Positions 23,169-30,702 of a stretch of 64,000 nucleotides of DNA are shown here, piece after piece. Source of the DNA: Oligoflexia bacterium (GTDB taxonomy: Bacteria; Bdellovibrionota_G; JANQFH01); the NCBI GenBank assembly GCA_028277945.1, contig JANQFH010000003.1, forward strand, positions 1-64,000. Reading direction: 5' to 3'. Within the stretch, counting starts at the first letter, position 1; each line of letters opens with the position of its first letter. The notes below the pieces were generated by a model that did not search any database, was not told where the DNA came from, and worked only from the letters and a program-made list of their open reading frames with translations. The translations under genes were made by a program, and so were the position numbers.

Positions 23169-25142
23169 CTAAGGGCTTCCTTCTCGGGGCCATACATCTG
23201 AGGGCTTTACACTCTGTAGCCTGTCTTCCGGCAGTCCATGGCTTATTGGAAACTTTGCAAGGGTCGCAAGGAATTCTGCGGCCTGGTCAGGATAGCTTTC
23301 GAATACGGGAATACCAACCCTCTGAACTAAGGTTGTAAAGTCTTCTGTTCTTATATCTCTGTTTTGTAGATAGACTGCTTGTGCCATTTTCCCTATCAAT
23401 TGAATTGCGCTGTTGCTCTCAACAAGCTCTTCGGCGCGATTTCTCCTGTCTTTTAAAATGTCTCGCTCTGGTTCAGTCAGGTCCTCTACGAGCTTTTCCT
23501 CAAGGCCCAATTTTGTCCAAAGCCTGTGCAGATCGCCAACAACAAGCGCCGGCGGAACAAGTGGAGCAACAGCATCATAGACGCTGGCCGTTTTACGAAC
23601 TTCAACAATGATATAATCTCGAACCAAGCGTAACCGAATGGCCTGCGAAAAGTCACCACTAGAGAGAATCGCCTCTGCAAAAATGGTTTCTCGATAAACA
23701 GATTGCTCGACAAACAACGTCGCCAAAAGAAACTGGCTTGCTGCAGCTGGATCCACCTTTGCCCAGTAAGCCCAATGGCGTAGCGAATATAGGTTATCAG
23801 TATTTGCAACAACCTGGTTGGCAAAAAACTGACTAGCTCTTGCCTGCTGACTCACTCTACTCTGATAATAGACATCAGTGGGCAAAAGCGTGTTACCATA
23901 TCCATCCACCCAAGCTGAGAGAAGGGCAACGGTTCGGATAAGACGTCTATGAGCACCCTGAAAAAGGTGGGGTGAACGCCTTTCAGCCCCATCAATAAGC
24001 CATACCAGCAAATCAGAAAAATAGCGTGGGGTTAATATTTGCTGTCGGAAGAACCTCGCGACACTCTCTAATAAGAAGTCTACCGAATCTATATCCCCTT
24101 CTACTTCAAAGAGTCGCTCGAAAGCTTCGAAGGCTTCTGGGCTCTGAGTCGCGAGAAGAACAGCGATGTAATGCTCCACACTCACGCTGCTTGTGTCATC
24201 AGTGCTCTCATGCAAAAGCCACTGACGATAGTCTTCTAGGGCAGCTTGCAAATTCTCAGCGAGACGCTCAATGACAGGCTCTGTGGGTAGAAACAGCAGT
24301 ATCGCTTCTCTGTCTACGGCGTAGGAAATAGGAATACTCTTAATGGGTGTGGCCTCTTCTGGATCAAAGGTCGGCAAGATTTGCGGTGCATAGGAGCGAT
24401 CTTCAATAACAACGGTAGACGCTTCATCTTCATGCGGCTCAAGCTTTTTTCTTGCAGCAACTAGAAAGGCGATTTTCGACCCTTTGGGAAAAGGTTCCTT
24501 GGGAAGTCGACTGCTCTCAAAGAGAACAAAGATCGCGCCGGATTGCACAGAGTCTAGCAAAAATTGCTCCCAATGATTGGTTTTTGCAACCTCCGCCAAA
24601 TTTGGCAAGGCATCTTGTAGGCTTGCCATTAAATCGGCGTTGCTCACCCCTAGCTGAGGTAACCATTCGGCCACCTGCTGATTTTCCAGAAGCAGATCAG
24701 GAAGGTAAACCAGGCGTGCTCTAAACTCCATGGCAGTTGCATAGGTAAAGCCGTAGCGTTCCAGCAAATGCATCATGCCCGCTGCTAGAGCACGGAAAAA
24801 TAAACGGCTCTGATCATCCGGTAGACGGCTTAACAAGTCCTGTGTGAACGGCGAGGCTAAGGTTGTGTGTTGCTGCAAATAGTCTGTAAGTTGGGGCAGA
24901 TCCAGGACATCATCCAATAAGTCGGAAAGGGTAATGTGAGGAGTGCGCAGAGGGTTGGCAGCACGACGTTCACCCTTGAGGATATCCACCATGAATTGGT
25001 CGGCCGCCCGAGTTGGAGCTGTAACAGCCGGTACAGGCCTGCGGTCATCTCCCTGAGCCCAACCTGTGTGTGGCAAAAGCATGCAAGCAAGCCAGACCAG
25101 GACAACCATCCATAGCGGTATTCTTGAGATCGTTGCCAACAA
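23169..25142 (-). CDS. large exported protein of unknown function
   Basis: 657 residues. A clear signal peptide (about 1-30, LVWLACMLLPHTGWAQ) means it is exported; no later membrane helix is evident. The mature part is almost all helical, with repeated Leu/Phe-rich amphipathic stretches (RLFFRALAAGMMHLLERYGF; RSPHLFQGAHRRLIRTVALL) that look like a superhelical repeat protein, but I recognise no family, catalytic motif or binding signature. A good candidate for a lineage-specific periplasmic protein. It converges on gloB with a 15-base gap; a 40-residue open frame lies 22 bases upstream in the same direction. Confidence 0.75.
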   Translation of the reverse strand: MLATISRIPLWMVVLVWLACMLLPHTGWAQGDDRRPVPAVTAPTRAADQFMVDILKGERRAANPLRTPHITLSDLLDDVLDLPQLTDYLQQHTTLASPFTQDLLSRLPDDQSRLFFRALAAGMMHLLERYGFTYATAMEFRARLVYLPDLLLENQQVAEWLPQLGVSNADLMASLQDALPNLAEVAKTNHWEQFLLDSVQSGAIFVLFESSRLPKEPFPKGSKIAFLVAARKKLEPHEDEASTVVIEDRSYAPQILPTFDPEEATPIKSIPISYAVDREAILLFLPTEPVIERLAENLQAALEDYRQWLLHESTDDTSSVSVEHYIAVLLATQSPEAFEAFERLFEVEGDIDSVDFLLESVARFFRQQILTPRYFSDLLVWLIDGAERRSPHLFQGAHRRLIRTVALLSAWVDGYGNTLLPTDVYYQSRVSQQARASQFFANQVVANTDNLYSLRHWAYWAKVDPAAASQFLLATLFVEQSVYRETIFAEAILSSGDFSQAIRLRLVRDYIIVEVRKTASVYDAVAPLVPPALVVGDLHRLWTKLGLEEKLVEDLTEPERDILKDRRNRAEELVESNSAIQLIGKMAQAVYLQNRDIRTEDFTTLVQRVGIPVFESYPDQAAEFLATLAKFPISHGLPEDRLQSVKPSDVWPREGSP

Positions 25143-25164
25143 ACGTGCCGCCTAACCTGAGACT

Positions 25165-25287
25165 CTAAGACTCGTGAGAAGGTTCAAGTATCTTAATGGC
25201 CGCTGCCGTGTGCTGCAGAACAACCTCATGTGTACTTCTTGCATACCAACCCCTGAGCGCAGGTAGGCAGTATATCGCCTGATACAT
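25165..25287 (-). CDS. possible 40-residue small protein upstream of the exported protein
   Basis: An ATG with AGGAG six bases upstream opens a 40-codon frame (MYQAIYCLPALRGWYARSTH start) ending at TAG. It lies in the same direction and 22 bases before the 657-residue gene, so it could be cotranscribed or act as a leader. It has no recognisable domain. The strong ribosome site is the only positive evidence. Confidence 0.4.
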   Translation of the reverse strand: MYQAIYCLPALRGWYARSTHEVVLQHTAAAIKILEPSHES

Positions 25288-25529
25288 GGTCATCTCCTAA
25301 CAAGTTCGATGCTACACATCGTTACTATATATTGACGAATCTGCAATCTTTGTACCACCAGAATGAATGTTAAAATGTTTTATTTCAAATAGTTATGTCG
25401 TAGTCGGCAACGAAATTAGGACCTTTTGCAGAATTCTGCCTCATATTAGGGACACTCTATCCCAGTTAGCTTACCCTCCATATAACGCAAAGAGTAAAAA
25501 AGACGGCTGATTTTATTGGCAAATATTAC

Positions 25530-25557
25530 TTGACAACTAATGTATGTGCCATATATT
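25530..25557 (+). promoter_or_regulatory. good sigma-70 promoter in the gap before the pilin genes
   Basis: Perfect TTGACA (-35), a 16-base spacer and TATATT (-10, five of six). Transcription would start near 25564 and run toward the pilin genes at 26.1 kb. Between 25288 and this site I see only A/T-rich sequence and no gene. Confidence 0.55.
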
Positions 25558-25593
25558 GCACCTGCTTCATTACAGAAGGTTGAATCCAAACAG

Positions 25594-25893
25594 ATGGTTG
25601 CAAAGCCTATAGTCGTTGTTCTTCTCGCTTTGATGGCAGCAGCAGTAGATGCTTTGCAGCAGGCTGTGAAGATCAGCCTTTCCTCACTATCTAGGGCGGG
25701 GGAATCTCATTCCCAACAGAGGCGCCAGGGAGACGTCGTTTTTCCCACTCAATACTCAGCCCCCCTCGAATTGCTGGGTAACCTCCTGGGCGCGTACTCG
25801 CAGGTACGAAGAGAACAGCGTAGCACGAATCCGTTTCGGTTGTGTGGTTTTTACGGTGCGGTAGAAACGGCCAGTGCCACGAGTTCCCATTAA
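25594..25893 (+). CDS. weakly supported open frame with signal-like N-terminus
   Basis: Starting at the ATG after the promoter at 25530-25557, a 99-residue frame begins with a hydrophobic stretch (MVAKPIVVVLLALMAAAVDA), then turns polar with no recognisable domain. No good Shine-Dalgarno site is present. On the opposite strand a 44-codon Arg-rich frame (25756-25890) overlaps it. Either, or neither, may be translated; this 780-base stretch before the pilins may instead be a regulatory or decayed mobile segment. Confidence 0.25.
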   Translation: MVAKPIVVVLLALMAAAVDALQQAVKISLSSLSRAGESHSQQRRQGDVVFPTQYSAPLELLGNLLGAYSQVRREQRSTNPFRLCGFYGAVETASATSSH

Positions 25894-25910
25894 AAACGAC
25901 GCATCCTAAC

Positions 25911-25938
25911 GTGAGGTGGCTTGTTTAAGCCACCTCAC
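25911..25938. repeat. 12-bp perfect hairpin
   Basis: GTGAGGTGGCTT and AAGCCACCTCAC flank a 4-base loop. No T-run follows on either strand, so it is not an ordinary intrinsic terminator. It may be an RNA structure, a protein-binding site, or part of a decayed element. Confidence 0.6.
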
Positions 25939-26069
25939 CGCCTCTGCTTCAGTTTCCGGAGCCCTTGAGTTCGTTTTTCCAACCCGATTCTACCGGTCCA
26001 CAGATTGGTTTCGCTATTTCAATAGCTTAGTTATGGCATCGAGGTTGCTATCGCCATTAGCCAGCGACC

Positions 26070-26234
26070 ATGCAGGCAGCAGGACAAACTCATAAGGGCA
26101 GTGCAACACTCACTTACGCCATCATATTGGGCCTCTCTCTTAGCCTGTTGCTTGCCAGCGCAGCCATCTTTGAAAAAAGGCTCGGTGGCTACTTTAGCAA
26201 GGTAGCTGAGAAGGTTGCCACGCCCTTTCCATAA
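26070..26234 (+). CDS. small Flp/TadE-like pilin-type protein
   Basis: A 54-residue frame: a short polar N-terminus (MQAAGQTHKGSATLTY), one strongly hydrophobic helix (AIILGLSLSLLLASAAIF) and a polar amphipathic tail. This is the layout of a short type IVb (Flp) pilin or pseudopilin; the usual Gly-before-Tyr/Glu cleavage motif is degenerate (no Glu at +5). An in-frame stop lies just upstream, so ATG 26070 is the only start, with a weak ribosome site. A clearer pilin gene follows 23 bases later. Confidence 0.6.
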   Translation: MQAAGQTHKGSATLTYAIILGLSLSLLLASAAIFEKRLGGYFSKVAEKVATPFP

Positions 26235-26257
26235 AACCTTACCTGTAGGAGGAAGAG

Positions 26258-26506
26258 ATGATTGCAAGAGTGAAAAATCGAAGCCTCGGTCAGGGCATGA
26301 CCGAGTACCTCATCATCATTGCCCTGATTGCCATCACCAGCATTGGCGTCATGCGTATCTTTGGCAGCTCCATCAAATTCCAAATGGCGGAAAGCATCAC
26401 GGCCTTTCTCGGCAATGACAAATCCAAGATCAAACGCCCTCGCTTAACCAAGTCGGCAGCCAAAGACCGCACCATGCGAGACTTCGCCCGTGCGGCGGAT
26501 CGGTGA
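26258..26506 (+). CDS. Flp-family type IVb pilin
   Basis: 82 residues. After a basic leader it has the Flp prepilin signature GQGMTEYLIIIALIAI, with Glu at the fifth mature position, then the rest of the hydrophobic helix and the usual QMAESITAFLG. A Lys/Arg-rich tail of about 30 residues follows, longer than in typical Flp pilins. The ribosome site AGGAGGAAG is strong. Flp pilins form Tad adhesion pili after prepilin cleavage. No tad, cpa or prepilin peptidase gene is in the window, so this pair is an orphan. Confidence 0.85.
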   Translation: MIARVKNRSLGQGMTEYLIIIALIAITSIGVMRIFGSSIKFQMAESITAFLGNDKSKIKRPRLTKSAAKDRTMRDFARAADR

Positions 26507-26558
26507 GTAGCCGCACCTAGAAAAACCTTCTCAAGGTCATTGCGGTCCGAGAGTCTGG

Positions 26559-26586
26559 TTGACTTACCACTTTAATGTGGTATTAT
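26559..26586 (+). promoter_or_regulatory. hicAB promoter with inverted-repeat operator
   Basis: TTGACT (-35), a 16-base spacer and TATTAT (-10). The spacer plus first -10 bases form the inverted repeat TACCAC-N6-GTGGTA (26565-26582), where HicB would be expected to bind and repress. Confidence 0.7.
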
Positions 26587-26601
26587 AGAAGTTACTAGGG
26601 A

Positions 26602-26775
26602 GTGCCCACAAGTGGCAAAGACCTGGTAAAAGAATTCCAAAAAGCAGGATGGACGAGGGCTGGTCAAAAAGGCAGCCATGTCAAAGTGGGTAGCCACGTT
26701 TCTATCCCGCAACATAAAGAACTGCGACCGGGGACAGAGTATCAACTAAGAAAGATTCTTAGGAAACTGGGGTAA
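26602..26775 (+). CDS. hicA: HicA-family mRNA interferase toxin
   Basis: 57 residues starting at GTG (an in-frame TAG two codons upstream excludes a longer start). It shows the HicA double-stranded-RNA-binding-like pattern: SGKDLVKEFQKAGW, the catalytic-His loop KGSHVKVGSHVSIPQH, and GTEYQLRKILRKLG. HicA cleaves mRNA and arrests growth; HicB follows three bases downstream. The promoter and operator lie immediately upstream, leaving a leader of about ten bases. Confidence 0.88.
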   Translation: MPTSGKDLVKEFQKAGWTRAGQKGSHVKVGSHVSIPQHKELRPGTEYQLRKILRKLG

Positions 26776-26778
26776 TTC

Positions 26779-27204
26779 ATGCATTACCATTTTAAAGTTC
26801 ACAAAGAAAGAGACGGTTACTGGGCACAGTGTGTAGAGATCGAAGGCTGCATTACCGAGGCGAGTACCAAAAGGGCACTTGTCGATAACATGGCCGAAGC
26901 TCTCAATCTTATTCTCGATGAACCCCCTCACTCAAAACACATCTTCCCGTTTCCTAGGAAGACGGTAAGAGGCCAAAACATCATCAAGGTACAAGTAGAG
27001 CCTAAAGTAGCCATGGCCATGCTTGTCCGTACAAGCCGTCTTTTGAGTAAACTAACGCAGCAACAGGTTGCTGACAAGATGGGAGTCAAACTCTTTGCCT
27101 TCCAGCGGTTGGAATCTGCGAAATCGGCTAACCCAACCTGGACTACAATTAATAAATTGATAAAAGCATTGCCTGATTTTCCTATCGAACTGCTTGCGGC
27201 TTAA
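26779..27204 (+). CDS. hicB: HicB-family antitoxin
   Basis: 141 residues. Residues about 1-50 are the HicB RNase-H-like fold (MHYHFKVHKERDGYWAQCVE, then GCITEASTKRALVDNMAEAL). The C-terminal half is a Cro/Xre-type helix-turn-helix (SKLTQQQVADKMGVKLFAFQRLE), the DNA-binding part. This is the usual HicB antitoxin plus repressor. It follows hicA with a three-base gap. Confidence 0.92.
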   Translation: MHYHFKVHKERDGYWAQCVEIEGCITEASTKRALVDNMAEALNLILDEPPHSKHIFPFPRKTVRGQNIIKVQVEPKVAMAMLVRTSRLLSKLTQQQVADKMGVKLFAFQRLESAKSANPTWTTINKLIKALPDFPIELLAA

Positions 27205-27222
27205 ACCAGGAAACACGTCACA

Positions 27223-27987
27223 CTAAACTGAATTTTCACCAGCAAAGCGCTCGTACATACGCCGCTCCCAAGGGTAACACCCGTCGTCCCACGCGGCGAG
27301 TGTCTGCTGCAGGAGCTTTAAACCACCGCGTTCCTTTTGTAGCTGAAACAACAGCAAACCATAGTGGGCCTGGTAGAGTCTCTCGTCTGGCATGAGCTCA
27401 AAAGCCTTGGCCGCGTACTGCATACTGCGCTGTTGTTGCTGCTTGGTAAGAAAGAAGAGCAAAGAGAAATAGTAGAGCAAACGCGAAAGATAAAACAGGC
27501 CGACCTTGTGTAGGCTCGACTTCTCTAACCGCTGTAGCGCCTCCTGGTATTCATCCTTATACAGCAGCCACTGTGCTTGAACTAGGTGATGGCGGTTTTG
27601 CCAACGGTTTGATAGCCTTGATGGTTCAAAGTCTACGAATAAACGATCCAGATAATCGGCGGCGTCGGCGCCCTGTTGACCGAGATAAGCCGCTGCCAGA
27701 TAGAGCGCAGCGATCTGTCTTAGATTGCGATTTTTGCTTCGTTTAAAAATCGGCTCACATTCGCTGATAAGCCGTGCGAATTCGCGTTTGCGCAACCAGC
27801 GATCCATACGTTGAAAACGCACAAAAAAACCGTAAAGAAAAAAGAATGACGTCAACAAAACAAAGAGCAGCAACCACAACCAGATCAAGCTTGGCCGCCA
27901 ATAGGTGAACAGCAAAGCACCGACTAAAACGAAAATGGGTAGAATATAGTCTCTTCGTCCAAGCACGTTGCTGCCTTGAATACCCAA
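27223..27987 (-). CDS. membrane-anchored TPR-like protein of unknown function
   Basis: 254 residues. Two transmembrane helices near the N-terminus (about 15-32 and 35-57, IWLWLLLFVLLTSFFFLYGF) are followed by a cytoplasmic or periplasmic helical repeat domain with TPR-like units (LLYKDEYQEALQRLEKSS; AAKAFELMPDERLYQAHYGL). No catalytic motif. It is the last gene after surE-pcm-yqaA-nlpD-like (two-base gap), where rpoS sits in gamma-proteobacteria. Possibly an envelope scaffold; function unknown. Confidence 0.75.
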   Translation of the reverse strand: MGIQGSNVLGRRDYILPIFVLVGALLFTYWRPSLIWLWLLLFVLLTSFFFLYGFFVRFQRMDRWLRKREFARLISECEPIFKRSKNRNLRQIAALYLAAAYLGQQGADAADYLDRLFVDFEPSRLSNRWQNRHHLVQAQWLLYKDEYQEALQRLEKSSLHKVGLFYLSRLLYYFSLLFFLTKQQQQRSMQYAAKAFELMPDERLYQAHYGLLLFQLQKERGGLKLLQQTLAAWDDGCYPWERRMYERFAGENSV

Positions 27988-27989
27988 AC

Positions 27990-28709
27990 CTAAGGCAGGA
28001 GGTTTTCAGGGTTGACGGGCACCGTACGTTCGCGAATTTCAAAATGCAGCAACGGTTGATCTTGTTTAAAGTGATCTGTGTTTGGCGAGCCAACCGCGCC
28101 GACACTGGCACCCTGTTTTATCTCGGTATCTCGAGTAACGAGGATAGCGCCAAGGTAGCTATAAACGGAAAAGATCTCCTCGGCGTGACGGATGATAACT
28201 GTCTTACCAAAACCCTCAACATCATTCCCCGTATAGATGACACGGCCATCAGCCACAGCCGTCACCGTGGTCCCGGCAGGTGCAATGATATCAATACCAC
28301 TGTGCTTTTTGCGGCGATGTTTACCAAACCCCAAAGCAACTCGCTTTAGTTGCGACTGACGCAACGGCCAGATAAAACGACCACTGAGATTGCTTGCCCG
28401 CAGCCTCTGCGGTACGGTCTTACGCCAATTGGCTCTTCTCTGTTTGTTTTTGGGGGGAATCCCACTGCGCCGCTTGCCCTCATAACCTGGAATCAACAAA
28501 TACTGCCCTTCACGAATGTGTCCGAGATCGCGCATGTTGTTACTATGGGCGACCCGTTCAATCGGAACGCCGTAGGCCTTGGATATACGATACAAGGTCT
28601 CTCCCTTGGCAACCCTATGATAGTAACCTCGTCGAGATGCACAGCAGAGGCAAACGACCACCAGTACCGGCACCAAGATAAAACGAAGAAGGCCATTCAA
28701 ACCAGCCAT
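27990..28709 (-). CDS. nlpD: NlpD/EnvC-like LysM plus LytM (M23) protein, degenerate active site
   Basis: 239 residues: an N-terminal hydrophobic signal (about 1-22), one LysM module (about 32-76, KGETLYRISKAYGVPIERVA), a basic linker and a C-terminal LytM/M23 domain (about 120-239, KHSGIDIIAPAGTTVTAVADGR). H and D of the first zinc motif remain (HSGID), but the usual HxH near the end reads LLHFE and the usual YAHL reads YSYL. Loss of these histidines is the mark of NlpD/EnvC-type amidase activators, which control septal peptidoglycan splitting rather than cutting it. The place after surE and pcm fits nlpD. Start overlaps yqaA by 13 bases. Confidence 0.85.
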   Translation of the reverse strand: MAGLNGLLRFILVPVLVVVCLCCASRRGYYHRVAKGETLYRISKAYGVPIERVAHSNNMRDLGHIREGQYLLIPGYEGKRRSGIPPKNKQRRANWRKTVPQRLRASNLSGRFIWPLRQSQLKRVALGFGKHRRKKHSGIDIIAPAGTTVTAVADGRVIYTGNDVEGFGKTVIIRHAEEIFSVYSYLGAILVTRDTEIKQGASVGAVGSPNTDHFKQDQPLLHFEIRERTVPVNPENLLP

Positions 28710-29287: not shown

Positions 29288-29938
29288 CTATGCGGGCGTT
29301 TCTACAAATGGTACAAAAGCACACTGCCCTAGTGAGATCTGCTGTGGTCCTTGGGCTCCTTGATGCACGAAGACTGCTAGCTCCTGCCGATGTGTATCCC
29401 CTATAGGTACCACCAAACGGCCACCCTCCTTGAGCTGACCATAGAGTTTCTCTGGCAATCTTGAACTGAAAGCAGCAACAACAATACCATCGTAGGGGGC
29501 ATATTCTGGCCAACCCTCCCAACCATCGCCTAATTTCGCAAGCACGTTGTTGTAGTCAAGTCTAACAAAACGACGCTTTGCCTGACGCAACAGCGCTGGA
29601 ATCCTTTCGATCGTATAGACACTCTGGCAGAGTCTTGAAAGCAAAGCCGCCTGGTAACCACAACCGGTGCCGACGTCTAACACCCGCGCCCCAGGCCGCA
29701 GGTAGAGGCTCTGTAGCATGACAGCAACCGTATAGGGTTGGGAAATAGTCTGTCGCTGGCCAATGGGCAGTGCCTGGTTTTGATAGGCCTGATACTTGAG
29801 AGGAGAGTCGATAAACTCGTGTCGTGGCACTTCAGCAAAGGCCTGTAGCAAACGCATATCAGTGACACCACGGGAGATTAACTCCCTTTCTATCATTTGA
29901 CCTCTTGGCGTCTTGCTTACGTCTTTCAAAGCTTCCAA
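29288..29938 (-). CDS. pcm: protein-L-isoaspartate O-methyltransferase
   Basis: 216 residues, class I SAM-dependent methyltransferase. The SAM site is VLDVGTGCGYQAALL, preceded by the PCMT-specific GQRQTISQPYTVAVM, and VAAFSSRLPEKLYGQLKEGG follows. It repairs isoaspartyl residues in aged proteins. Its start overlaps the surE end by 13 bases. Confidence 0.96.
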   Translation of the reverse strand: MEALKDVSKTPRGQMIERELISRGVTDMRLLQAFAEVPRHEFIDSPLKYQAYQNQALPIGQRQTISQPYTVAVMLQSLYLRPGARVLDVGTGCGYQAALLSRLCQSVYTIERIPALLRQAKRRFVRLDYNNVLAKLGDGWEGWPEYAPYDGIVVAAFSSRLPEKLYGQLKEGGRLVVPIGDTHRQELAVFVHQGAQGPQQISLGQCAFVPFVETPA

Positions 29939-30702
29939 TCCCGCAACTGTTTCAAAAATTGGTAGTTCGTATAATCAAGATGGATCGGCGTCACAGAAAC
30001 CTTGCCAGCTCTAACAGCGGCAATGTCGCTCTCGCCGTCCGGTATATGTTCCATGACCTTACTGTTATTCCAGTAATAGTAATGACCGCGCGGATCCTGA
30101 CGCGTTTCAAAATTATAGCCCCAAGCTTTGTGGCCCATGGTCGTGGTGACACAAGTAAGAGACGTGGCATCTGTTGCATTGGTAGTAGCACGGTTAGGAA
30201 CATTGATGTTAAGCAAGGTGTTCTTTGGCAGGCCATGCTCACACACCCGAGTTGCCAGGTCCTTGACCACCTCGACAGCAAGTTGAAAGTTTGGCGTCTC
30301 TCCTTCATCTTGGTCAAAAGCTAGAGAGACCGCTATCGCCGGTATTCCCATCTGCGTTGCTTGCATCGCCCCTGATACCGTGCCCGAGTTGGCGATGTCT
30401 GTCCCGACATTAGCGCCGTGGTTGATGCCAGAAATGACGAGGTTGATCGGATCGCGTACCAGCTTACTCAGTGCTAGGCTTACACAGTCTGCTGGTGTCC
30501 CGCTAACAGCAAAACGATCCGCATCTAAGCGATTTACTCTCAGGGGGTTGTGTAGCGTTAGCGAGTGTGAACAGGTGCTCTGTTCATTCATAGGAGCAAC
30601 GGTGATCACATGATTGACCCACGATGTCTGCTTAAGACCCGTAGCAAGCCGCTGTAGCCCTACTGCATCAATACCGTCGTCATTGGTTACCAAGATGTTC
30701 AT
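29926..30702 (-). CDS. surE: 5'/3'-nucleotidase SurE
   Basis: 258 residues. The metal-binding N-terminus reads ILVTNDDGIDAVGL, followed by SGTPADCVSLAL and the signature VISGINHGANVGTDIANSGT. SurE dephosphorylates nucleoside monophosphates under stress. GGGGGAG lies just before the ATG. It opens the surE-pcm-yqaA-nlpD-like operon and is divergent from mfd. Confidence 0.97.
   Translation of the reverse strand: MNILVTNDDGIDAVGLQRLATGLKQTSWVNHVITVAPMNEQSTCSHSLTLHNPLRVNRLDADRFAVSGTPADCVSLALSKLVRDPINLVISGINHGANVGTDIANSGTVSGAMQATQMGIPAIAVSLAFDQDEGETPNFQLAVEVVKDLATRVCEHGLPKNTLLNINVPNRATTNATDATSLTCVTTTMGHKAWGYNFETRQDPRGHYYYWNNSKVMEHIPDGESDIAAVRAGKVSVTPIHLDYTNYQFLKQLRDWKL

Follow-up and report, generated by a model that had tools for sequence, protein, structure and literature searches.

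We report that two adjacent genes for small Flp pilins, which seem at first sight to stand alone, probably form the filament module of a dispersed Tad (Flp, type IVc) pilus. Under this reading the second gene, of 82 codons, encodes the major pilin of the fibre, the first, of 54 codons, encodes an adapter at its tip, and the assembly machine is the one encoded on a different contig, C47. The pair lies in a stretch of 64,000 nucleotides (hereafter the window, C2:1-64000) of a genome that comprises 2.86 Mb in 92 contigs and is 95.6% complete (G000). A preliminary description of the window had called the pair an orphan, and by its own account a genome with no Tad system anywhere would have spoken against its reading. 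The term is apt for the window but not for the genome: Tad genes are present, they belong to two systems, and one of the two machine loci has no adjoining pilin.

The two co-directional reading frames named in that description are both there (Table 1), separated by 23 bp. The second is preceded by a strong ribosome-binding site, whose AGGAGG ends five bases before the ATG, and its product carries the prepilin motif GQGMTEY, as the description had noted. Upstream of the first gene there is no clear Shine-Dalgarno sequence; its ATG is the earliest start downstream of an in-frame TAG at 26058. The 54-residue protein has a ten-residue leader and the prepilin site KG/SATLTY, which retains Gly-1 and Tyr6 and has Thr in place of Glu5, again in agreement with the earlier reading.

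Table 1. Pilin pair and conserved neighbouring genes in the window (slash, cleavage site)
Feature	Position	Strand	Remarks
Short adapter-like Flp, 54 aa	26070..26234	+	leader MQAAGQTHKG; mature protein begins SATLTY; ends TPFP
AGGAGG ribosome-binding site of the 82-aa Flp gene	26247..26252	+	
KilP-like major Flp, 82 aa	26258..26506	+	LG/QGMTEY; C-terminal MRDF
LysM/M23 peptidase	27990..28709	-	conserved neighbourhood; beside the Flp gene in 4/4 relatives
pcm (PCMT)	29288..29938	-	conserved neighbourhood
surE	29926..30702	-	conserved neighbourhood; TadG-containing cluster on its far side in relatives

AlphaFold2 models the 54-residue protein as one helix, from residue 8 to residue 49, with the final five residues non-helical (mean pLDDT 78). 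For the 82-residue protein it gives a helix from 12 to 51, two further short helices and a loose tail, with a low mean pLDDT of 63. The longer protein matches the Pfam family Flp_Fap weakly (E 0.051; 13.8 bits, under the cut-off of 32.2), the shorter one has no Pfam match up to E 1, and NCBIfam matches neither. The Flp_Fap cut-off is not a sharp test, because the Flp inside the Tad locus on contig C68 misses it too (30.9 bits). The 82-residue protein has what defines an Flp, that is, a short helical protein with a prepilin site G/XXXXEY, and we class it as a KilP-type major Flp, although it falls under the Pfam cut-off. It belongs to a broad group of Flps of the form GQGMTEY[ILM]I... with a C-terminal motif that reads, by eye, as L/M-x-x-F/Y; the group is seen in the best 80 among 274 named loci. 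Those 80 loci are mostly beta-, gamma- and deltaproteobacterial, and CpaB-, secretin- and TadG-like reading frames often adjoin the Flp gene in them; the locus lengths vary, and a CpaB-like frame is found in 37 and a secretin-like frame in 23. A relative of the Flp of a Myxococcaceae bin occurs in 17 of the 21 genomes around that bin. In one distant genome, G075, six short Flp-like reading frames stand in a row (L031 842-2089, +).

Around the pair itself little else was detected. About 0.9 kb ahead of it (25143-26069) holds no convincing gene, an Rfam search of 25100-26650 gave nothing up to E 0.1, and a promoter scan of 25300-27300 found two candidates against 1.7 expected. The description had also held that no tad, cpa or prepilin peptidase gene is nearby, and this is borne out: apart from the pair's own weak match, Pfam finds none among 19 window reading frames between 21 and 43 kb, and genome-wide searches for T2SSE ATPases, A24 peptidases, CpaB and TadE return no match inside the window.

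Elsewhere the same searches were productive. The genome encodes T2SSE ATPases at eight places, and it encodes two Tad systems, which we call A and B. System B, on contig C68, is complete: it has a secretin, CpaB, TadE/TadG-like pilins, FHA proteins, an intact TadB and a TadC (a T2SSF protein of 315 aa), and TadZ-like and CpaF domains are fused in one protein of 722 aa (L003 10665-12833, -). It also has a pilin pair of its own, an 81-aa short Flp ahead of a 67-aa Flp. A C68 protein of 156 aa is a DUF192 protein, and long TadZ-CpaF forms of 711-714 aa are seen in the related genomes G001, G003 and G004 as well. The parts of system A appear to lie in separate clusters, at C2:26.07-26.5 kb (Flp), C2:90.3-93.0 kb (TadE, TadG and CpaB) and C47:7.8-12.1 kb (secretin, CpaF, TadB and TadC). 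The second of these (C2:90283-93023), on the same contig as the window pair and 64 kb from it, encodes a TadE of 168 aa (Pfam E 1.4e-6), a TadG-like protein of 343 aa (Tad/TadG, 5.9e-4; 20.6 bits, just under the cut-off), a third pilin-like protein of 172 aa with no Pfam match, and a CpaB of 270 aa (CpaB/RcpC, 4e-9). The third (C47:7793-12090) encodes a secretin, an FHA-CpaF protein (FHA plus T2SSE), and TadB and TadC as T2SSF platform proteins; a pilin gene was not seen beside them in that neighbourhood. At the loci read, system A showed neither a separate TadZ nor a TadV. The sole A24 prepilin peptidase found genome-wide is a PilD-like protein of 271 aa with an N-terminal A24 domain, on contig C10. 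In addition, a lone CpaF-type ATPase sits on C63 (L017 10141-11232, -) without Tad neighbours; ATPases of this type occur in four of the five genomes of the phylum, and they group with those of genomes G097 and G098.

We then have to ask whether the pair is more than a chance arrangement. It is real beyond chance, because a homologue of the 82-residue protein is found in all five genomes compared from the phylum (G000-G004; at E 0.01, 20 genomes out of 96 have one), and in each a short prepilin-like reading frame lies directly upstream of the Flp gene or overlaps it, including all four relatives. Homologues of the window's pcm and surE genes, together with that of the LysM/M23 peptidase gene, likewise adjoin the Flp gene in every relative. 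An rmuC-like gene adjoins it in G001, G002 and G004 (checked against Pfam in G004) and is absent from the window, where its place (26602-27204, +) is taken by a HicA-like gene (Pfam 7e-11) followed by an HTH gene; the latter has a C-terminal HTH and a weakly UPF0150/DUF1902-like, HicB-like N-terminus. Near the spot that corresponds to the gene-poor 0.9 kb ahead of the pair, G001, G003 and G004 have a ferredoxin-like 2Fe-2S gene. A search of the window for remnants of rmuC or ferredoxin genes gave no meaningful match.

These relatives also tie the pair to tip pilins. In three of the four (G001, G002 and G003) the Flp gene and a TadG homologue are 3.4-4.1 kb apart, the case of G003 adding slightly to the linkage argument, and CpaB stands behind TadG in G001 and G002; the contig of G003 stops short of that point, and that of G004 terminates in a reading frame weakly like TadE. 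The linked proteins of G001 and G002 resemble the C2 set of this genome more closely than the C68 set: for CpaB the C2 copy matches at 2.8e-23 and 2.1e-22, against 6.2e-5 for the C68 copy, and for TadG the C2 copy matches at 2.1e-11 and 2.1e-9, against 2.0e-6 for the C68 copy. As for the machine, CpaF proteins of the C47 type occur in 5/5 genomes of the phylum and form one group (SH-aLRT 93), and those of the C68 type, also in 5/5, form a separate group (SH-aLRT 100). The C47-type gene is surrounded by secretin, TadB and TadC genes, and no pilin gene, in G001, G003 and G004, and by TadB and TadC genes in G002. The CpaF tree, built by a quick method with no bootstrap, thus separates A, B and the C63 type; it does not link the C47 type with the myxobacterial ATPases, whose rows are not shown to be KilF. 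We take A and B to be two old paralogous systems, and linkage of TadG and CpaB, together with elimination, suggests that the window pair goes with the machine locus that lacks a pilin, that is, with C47. Pairing by secretin similarity was also tried. All 24 secretins compared (from 80 named loci and G067) score higher against the C47 secretin than against the C68 one, and we dropped the measure as non-discriminating because the secretin of another Tad cluster (L158) favours C47 as well.

The short partner is best understood from its counterparts in other genomes. In a hand-chosen alignment of 13 short Flps, Gly-1, Tyr6 and a near-terminal proline are invariant, and Gln1 and Glu5 are present in 12, the exception being the 54-residue protein of the window. 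Nine short Flps can be read in the phylum (system A has five of them and system B four), and seven end exactly in Pro-x-Pro; the other two have Pro-Ile at the aligned position, followed by a tail. Such an ending is rare among the small reading frames of the region (20 of 2299). We scanned 458,302 bp drawn from this genome and from its relatives, with some overlap, for G-xxxxx-Y/F followed by a hydrophobic core, Glu5 not being required. The scan returned 81 prepilin-like small reading frames, and the seven that end in Pro-x-Pro, the window's among them, each stand immediately ahead of an Flp gene. Profile comparison is less generous to the window's member: a profile HMM built without it has no significant match to it (with 15 rows it ranks third among 1524 window segments, at E 0.31), and subset HMMs, also built without it, give E 1.3, 3.9 and 5.8. 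Position and shape suggest that it belongs to this class.

We also ran a test of the tail that does not depend on it. A tip protein of 374 aa served as query against 146 genomes from the phylum of G032; 58 matched, at 70 places, all of which were used. Small Flps were picked by their N-terminal pattern only, and identical mature sequences were counted once; 64 unique sequences were listed, and eight were left out by eye as spurious GC-rich frames. In the resulting set of myxobacterial tip-locus Flps, 43 of 56 end in Pro-x-Pro, five in API, one in PLT and seven in GAV, GAI or AAI. By comparison, the ending is found in 73 of 2681 small reading frames in the same 70 loci. A small Flp is present in 65 of these loci and absent from five. 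In the neighbourhoods read, the myxobacterial short Flps come after TadE/TadG-like pilins and close the tip-pilin clusters; in several genomes of one genus they are exactly 59 aa long. They are likely counterparts of KilK and KilO, since they share the tip-cluster position and, in that genus, the reported length of KilO, which was matched by length and place and not by accession. In myxobacterial tip clusters the neighbour of the short Flp is a protein of roughly 250-340 aa whose N-terminus is hydrophobic (L215 7678-8709; L217 8228-8989, -; L218 9481-10344, -), and the L217 and L218 proteins show, by eye, FSTKD in the N-terminus.

Beyond these groups, 183 loci, mostly of 6 kb or less to either side of beta-, gamma- and deltaproteobacterial Flps, contain genuine Pro-x-Pro short Flps only in the phylum and in G067. 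Full-length profile matches in the distant genomes G387, G519 and G024 all end in LPIP, two preceding an Flp gene and one a CpaB-like gene; since the search profile includes the tail, these three are illustrations and give no rate. In myxobacterial genomes most matches of the same profile are the major Flp. The class would range over the phylum, the myxobacteria and at least four distant genomes. None of ten members examined exceeds a Pfam or NCBIfam cut-off, and the tail is not described in the literature searched, which included the main text of PMC12075869; supplements and most subscription papers lay outside that search. Tentatively, and with rather less confidence than we attach to the pilus itself, we propose that the ending Pro-(Ile/Val/Phe/Leu)-Pro marks off, among the short Flps, a separate and so far unmodelled set of Tad minor pilins whose tail docks the TadE/TadG tip on the Flp filament, with the window's member at the very top of the fibre.

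The assembly route that these parts suggest is as follows. Cleavage of the two prepilins, after Gly-1, would fall to the PilD-like peptidase. The cluster of TadE, TadG-like protein, third pilin and CpaB at 90 kb on C2 would, with the short Flp, prime the fibre; the short Flp would connect the filament with the tip complex of TadE/TadG-like proteins, a role reported for KilK and KilO in Myxococcus. The C47 ATPase and platform would add the 82-residue Flp, made abundant by its strong ribosome site, from below, and the fibre would exit by way of the C47 secretin, together with CpaB. The weak start of the short gene suits a tip subunit needed in few copies, and the strong one of the major gene suits a shaft subunit needed in many. 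Thr5 is compatible with a role at the tip, because the cap subunit of type 4 filaments also lacks Glu5, according to the accessible text of PMC10191384. Counting against the dispersed-pilus reading are the deviant sequence of the 54-residue protein, the lack of a separate TadZ or TadV of system A at the loci read, the 13 myxobacterial tip-locus Flps without the Pro-x-Pro end, the five tip loci without a short Flp, and the 64 kb gap in this genome.

The closest published parallel is the Kil system of Myxococcus xanthus, for which we rely on the main text of PMC12075869. There KilP, the major pilin, whose gene lies outside the kil clusters, is reported to be essential for the pilus and for predation; it is not processed by KilA, and PilD has been suggested instead. 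TadE/TadG-like proteins form the predicted tip; KilK and KilO are needed to prime KilP polymerisation, are placed by models between tip and filament, and are transcribed at very low levels, KilO being a 59-aa protein of the tip3 cluster. Here as there, the major Flp is away from the machine, Tad genes are split over separate clusters (PMC12075869; PMC8460266, accessible text), and short Flp minor pilins accompany TadE/F/G-like tips. Unlike in Kil, however, the short Flp gene lies directly ahead of the major Flp gene, C47 keeps secretin, CpaF, TadB and TadC together, and the 54-residue protein lacks Glu5; our comparison is one of genes, and we claim neither prey killing nor adhesion for this organism. 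That protein is short and fully helical like KilK and KilO, and it has neither the G/XXXXE motif nor a significant sequence match. Because of these two differences we call it adapter-like and not a member of KilK/KilO. As for its place, the tip-pilin cluster is 64 kb away in this genome, and 3.4-4.1 kb separate the Flp and TadG genes in G001-G003.

Bdellovibrio offers a second comparison, taken from the accessible part of PMC5430801. Its flp1 and flp2 are likewise an adjacent pair with one atypical member, and its flp3 and flp4 lie outside the Tad locus. The flp1/flp2 pair, however, is within the Tad operon, and Flp2 lacks the Gly cleavage site, whereas here Gly-1 is present and Glu5 is gone. 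Classical Tad loci with Flp1 and TadE/TadF (PMC10191384, accessible text) share the core machine and the shortness of the major Flp; unlike in them, the genes here are in three places. In the accessible text of PMC8460266, Seef et al. describe Tad homologues split over separate clusters as a unique situation, to which the present phylum seems to add a second case. A gene order in which the short Flp directly precedes the major one, with tip and machine encoded elsewhere, is undescribed in the literature examined.

Several other accounts of the pair deserve to be weighed. The 82-residue protein might be a functional major pilin and the 54-codon frame a former adapter gene, decaying and without function. 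The short protein may be such a decaying gene because it alone of the 13 lacks both Glu5 and Gln1 and is missed by a profile built without it, and its gene has no clear ribosome site. Yet the frame is open, and Gly-1, Tyr6, the hydrophobic core and the Pro-x-Pro end are all retained, a combination shared by none of the other 74 prepilin-like small frames in the 458 kb, and all seven that have it precede an Flp; decay is therefore unlikely, though we take it seriously. A related thought is that the pair is silent or a relic, like Bdellovibrio flp3, a silent gene located away from the Tad locus (PMC5430801, accessible part). Against this, the pair is found in 5/5 genomes of the phylum in related gene order and has a strong ribosome site, and we consider this account very improbable.

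The remaining alternatives concern the place of the pair in a pilus. It could supply extra pilins to the complete system B, or to both systems, given that C68 has a secretin, CpaB, TadZ-CpaF, TadB and TadC and that one peptidase would serve all. This is rather unlikely, as C68 has its own short-Flp/Flp pair and the TadG and CpaB linked to the pair in relatives match the C2 set and not the C68 set. Alternatively, the short protein could be a cap pseudopilin at the extreme tip, and not an adapter beneath the tip complex, for the tip complex with which type 4 filaments begin assembly is capped by a subunit without Glu5 (PMC10191384, accessible text). But Glu5 is present in 12 of the 13 aligned class members, and in the main text of PMC12075869 TadE/TadG-like proteins already make the predicted myxobacterial tip, so that we regard a cap as distinctly unlikely. 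We thus retain the dispersed Tad pilus, which also gives substance to one of the two options in the preliminary description, a structural and an accessory pilin: a KilP-type major Flp and an adapter-like minor Flp.

Most likely, then, the structure is of a mostly known kind, a Tad pilus, and what is new is the Pro-x-Pro signature, which is testable. By joining three gene clusters, an apparent orphan pilin pair would become a complete pilus, in a phylum that includes two genomes deposited as Deltaproteobacteria and Bdellovibrionales bacteria. The published kil/tip survey retained matches at E 1e-25 or better, a value that such small proteins would probably hardly reach. The C-terminal Pro-x-Pro provides a simple sequence handle for tip-adapter pilins that profile libraries miss and, if our interpretation is correct, the attachment of Tad tips to the shaft would become directly testable.
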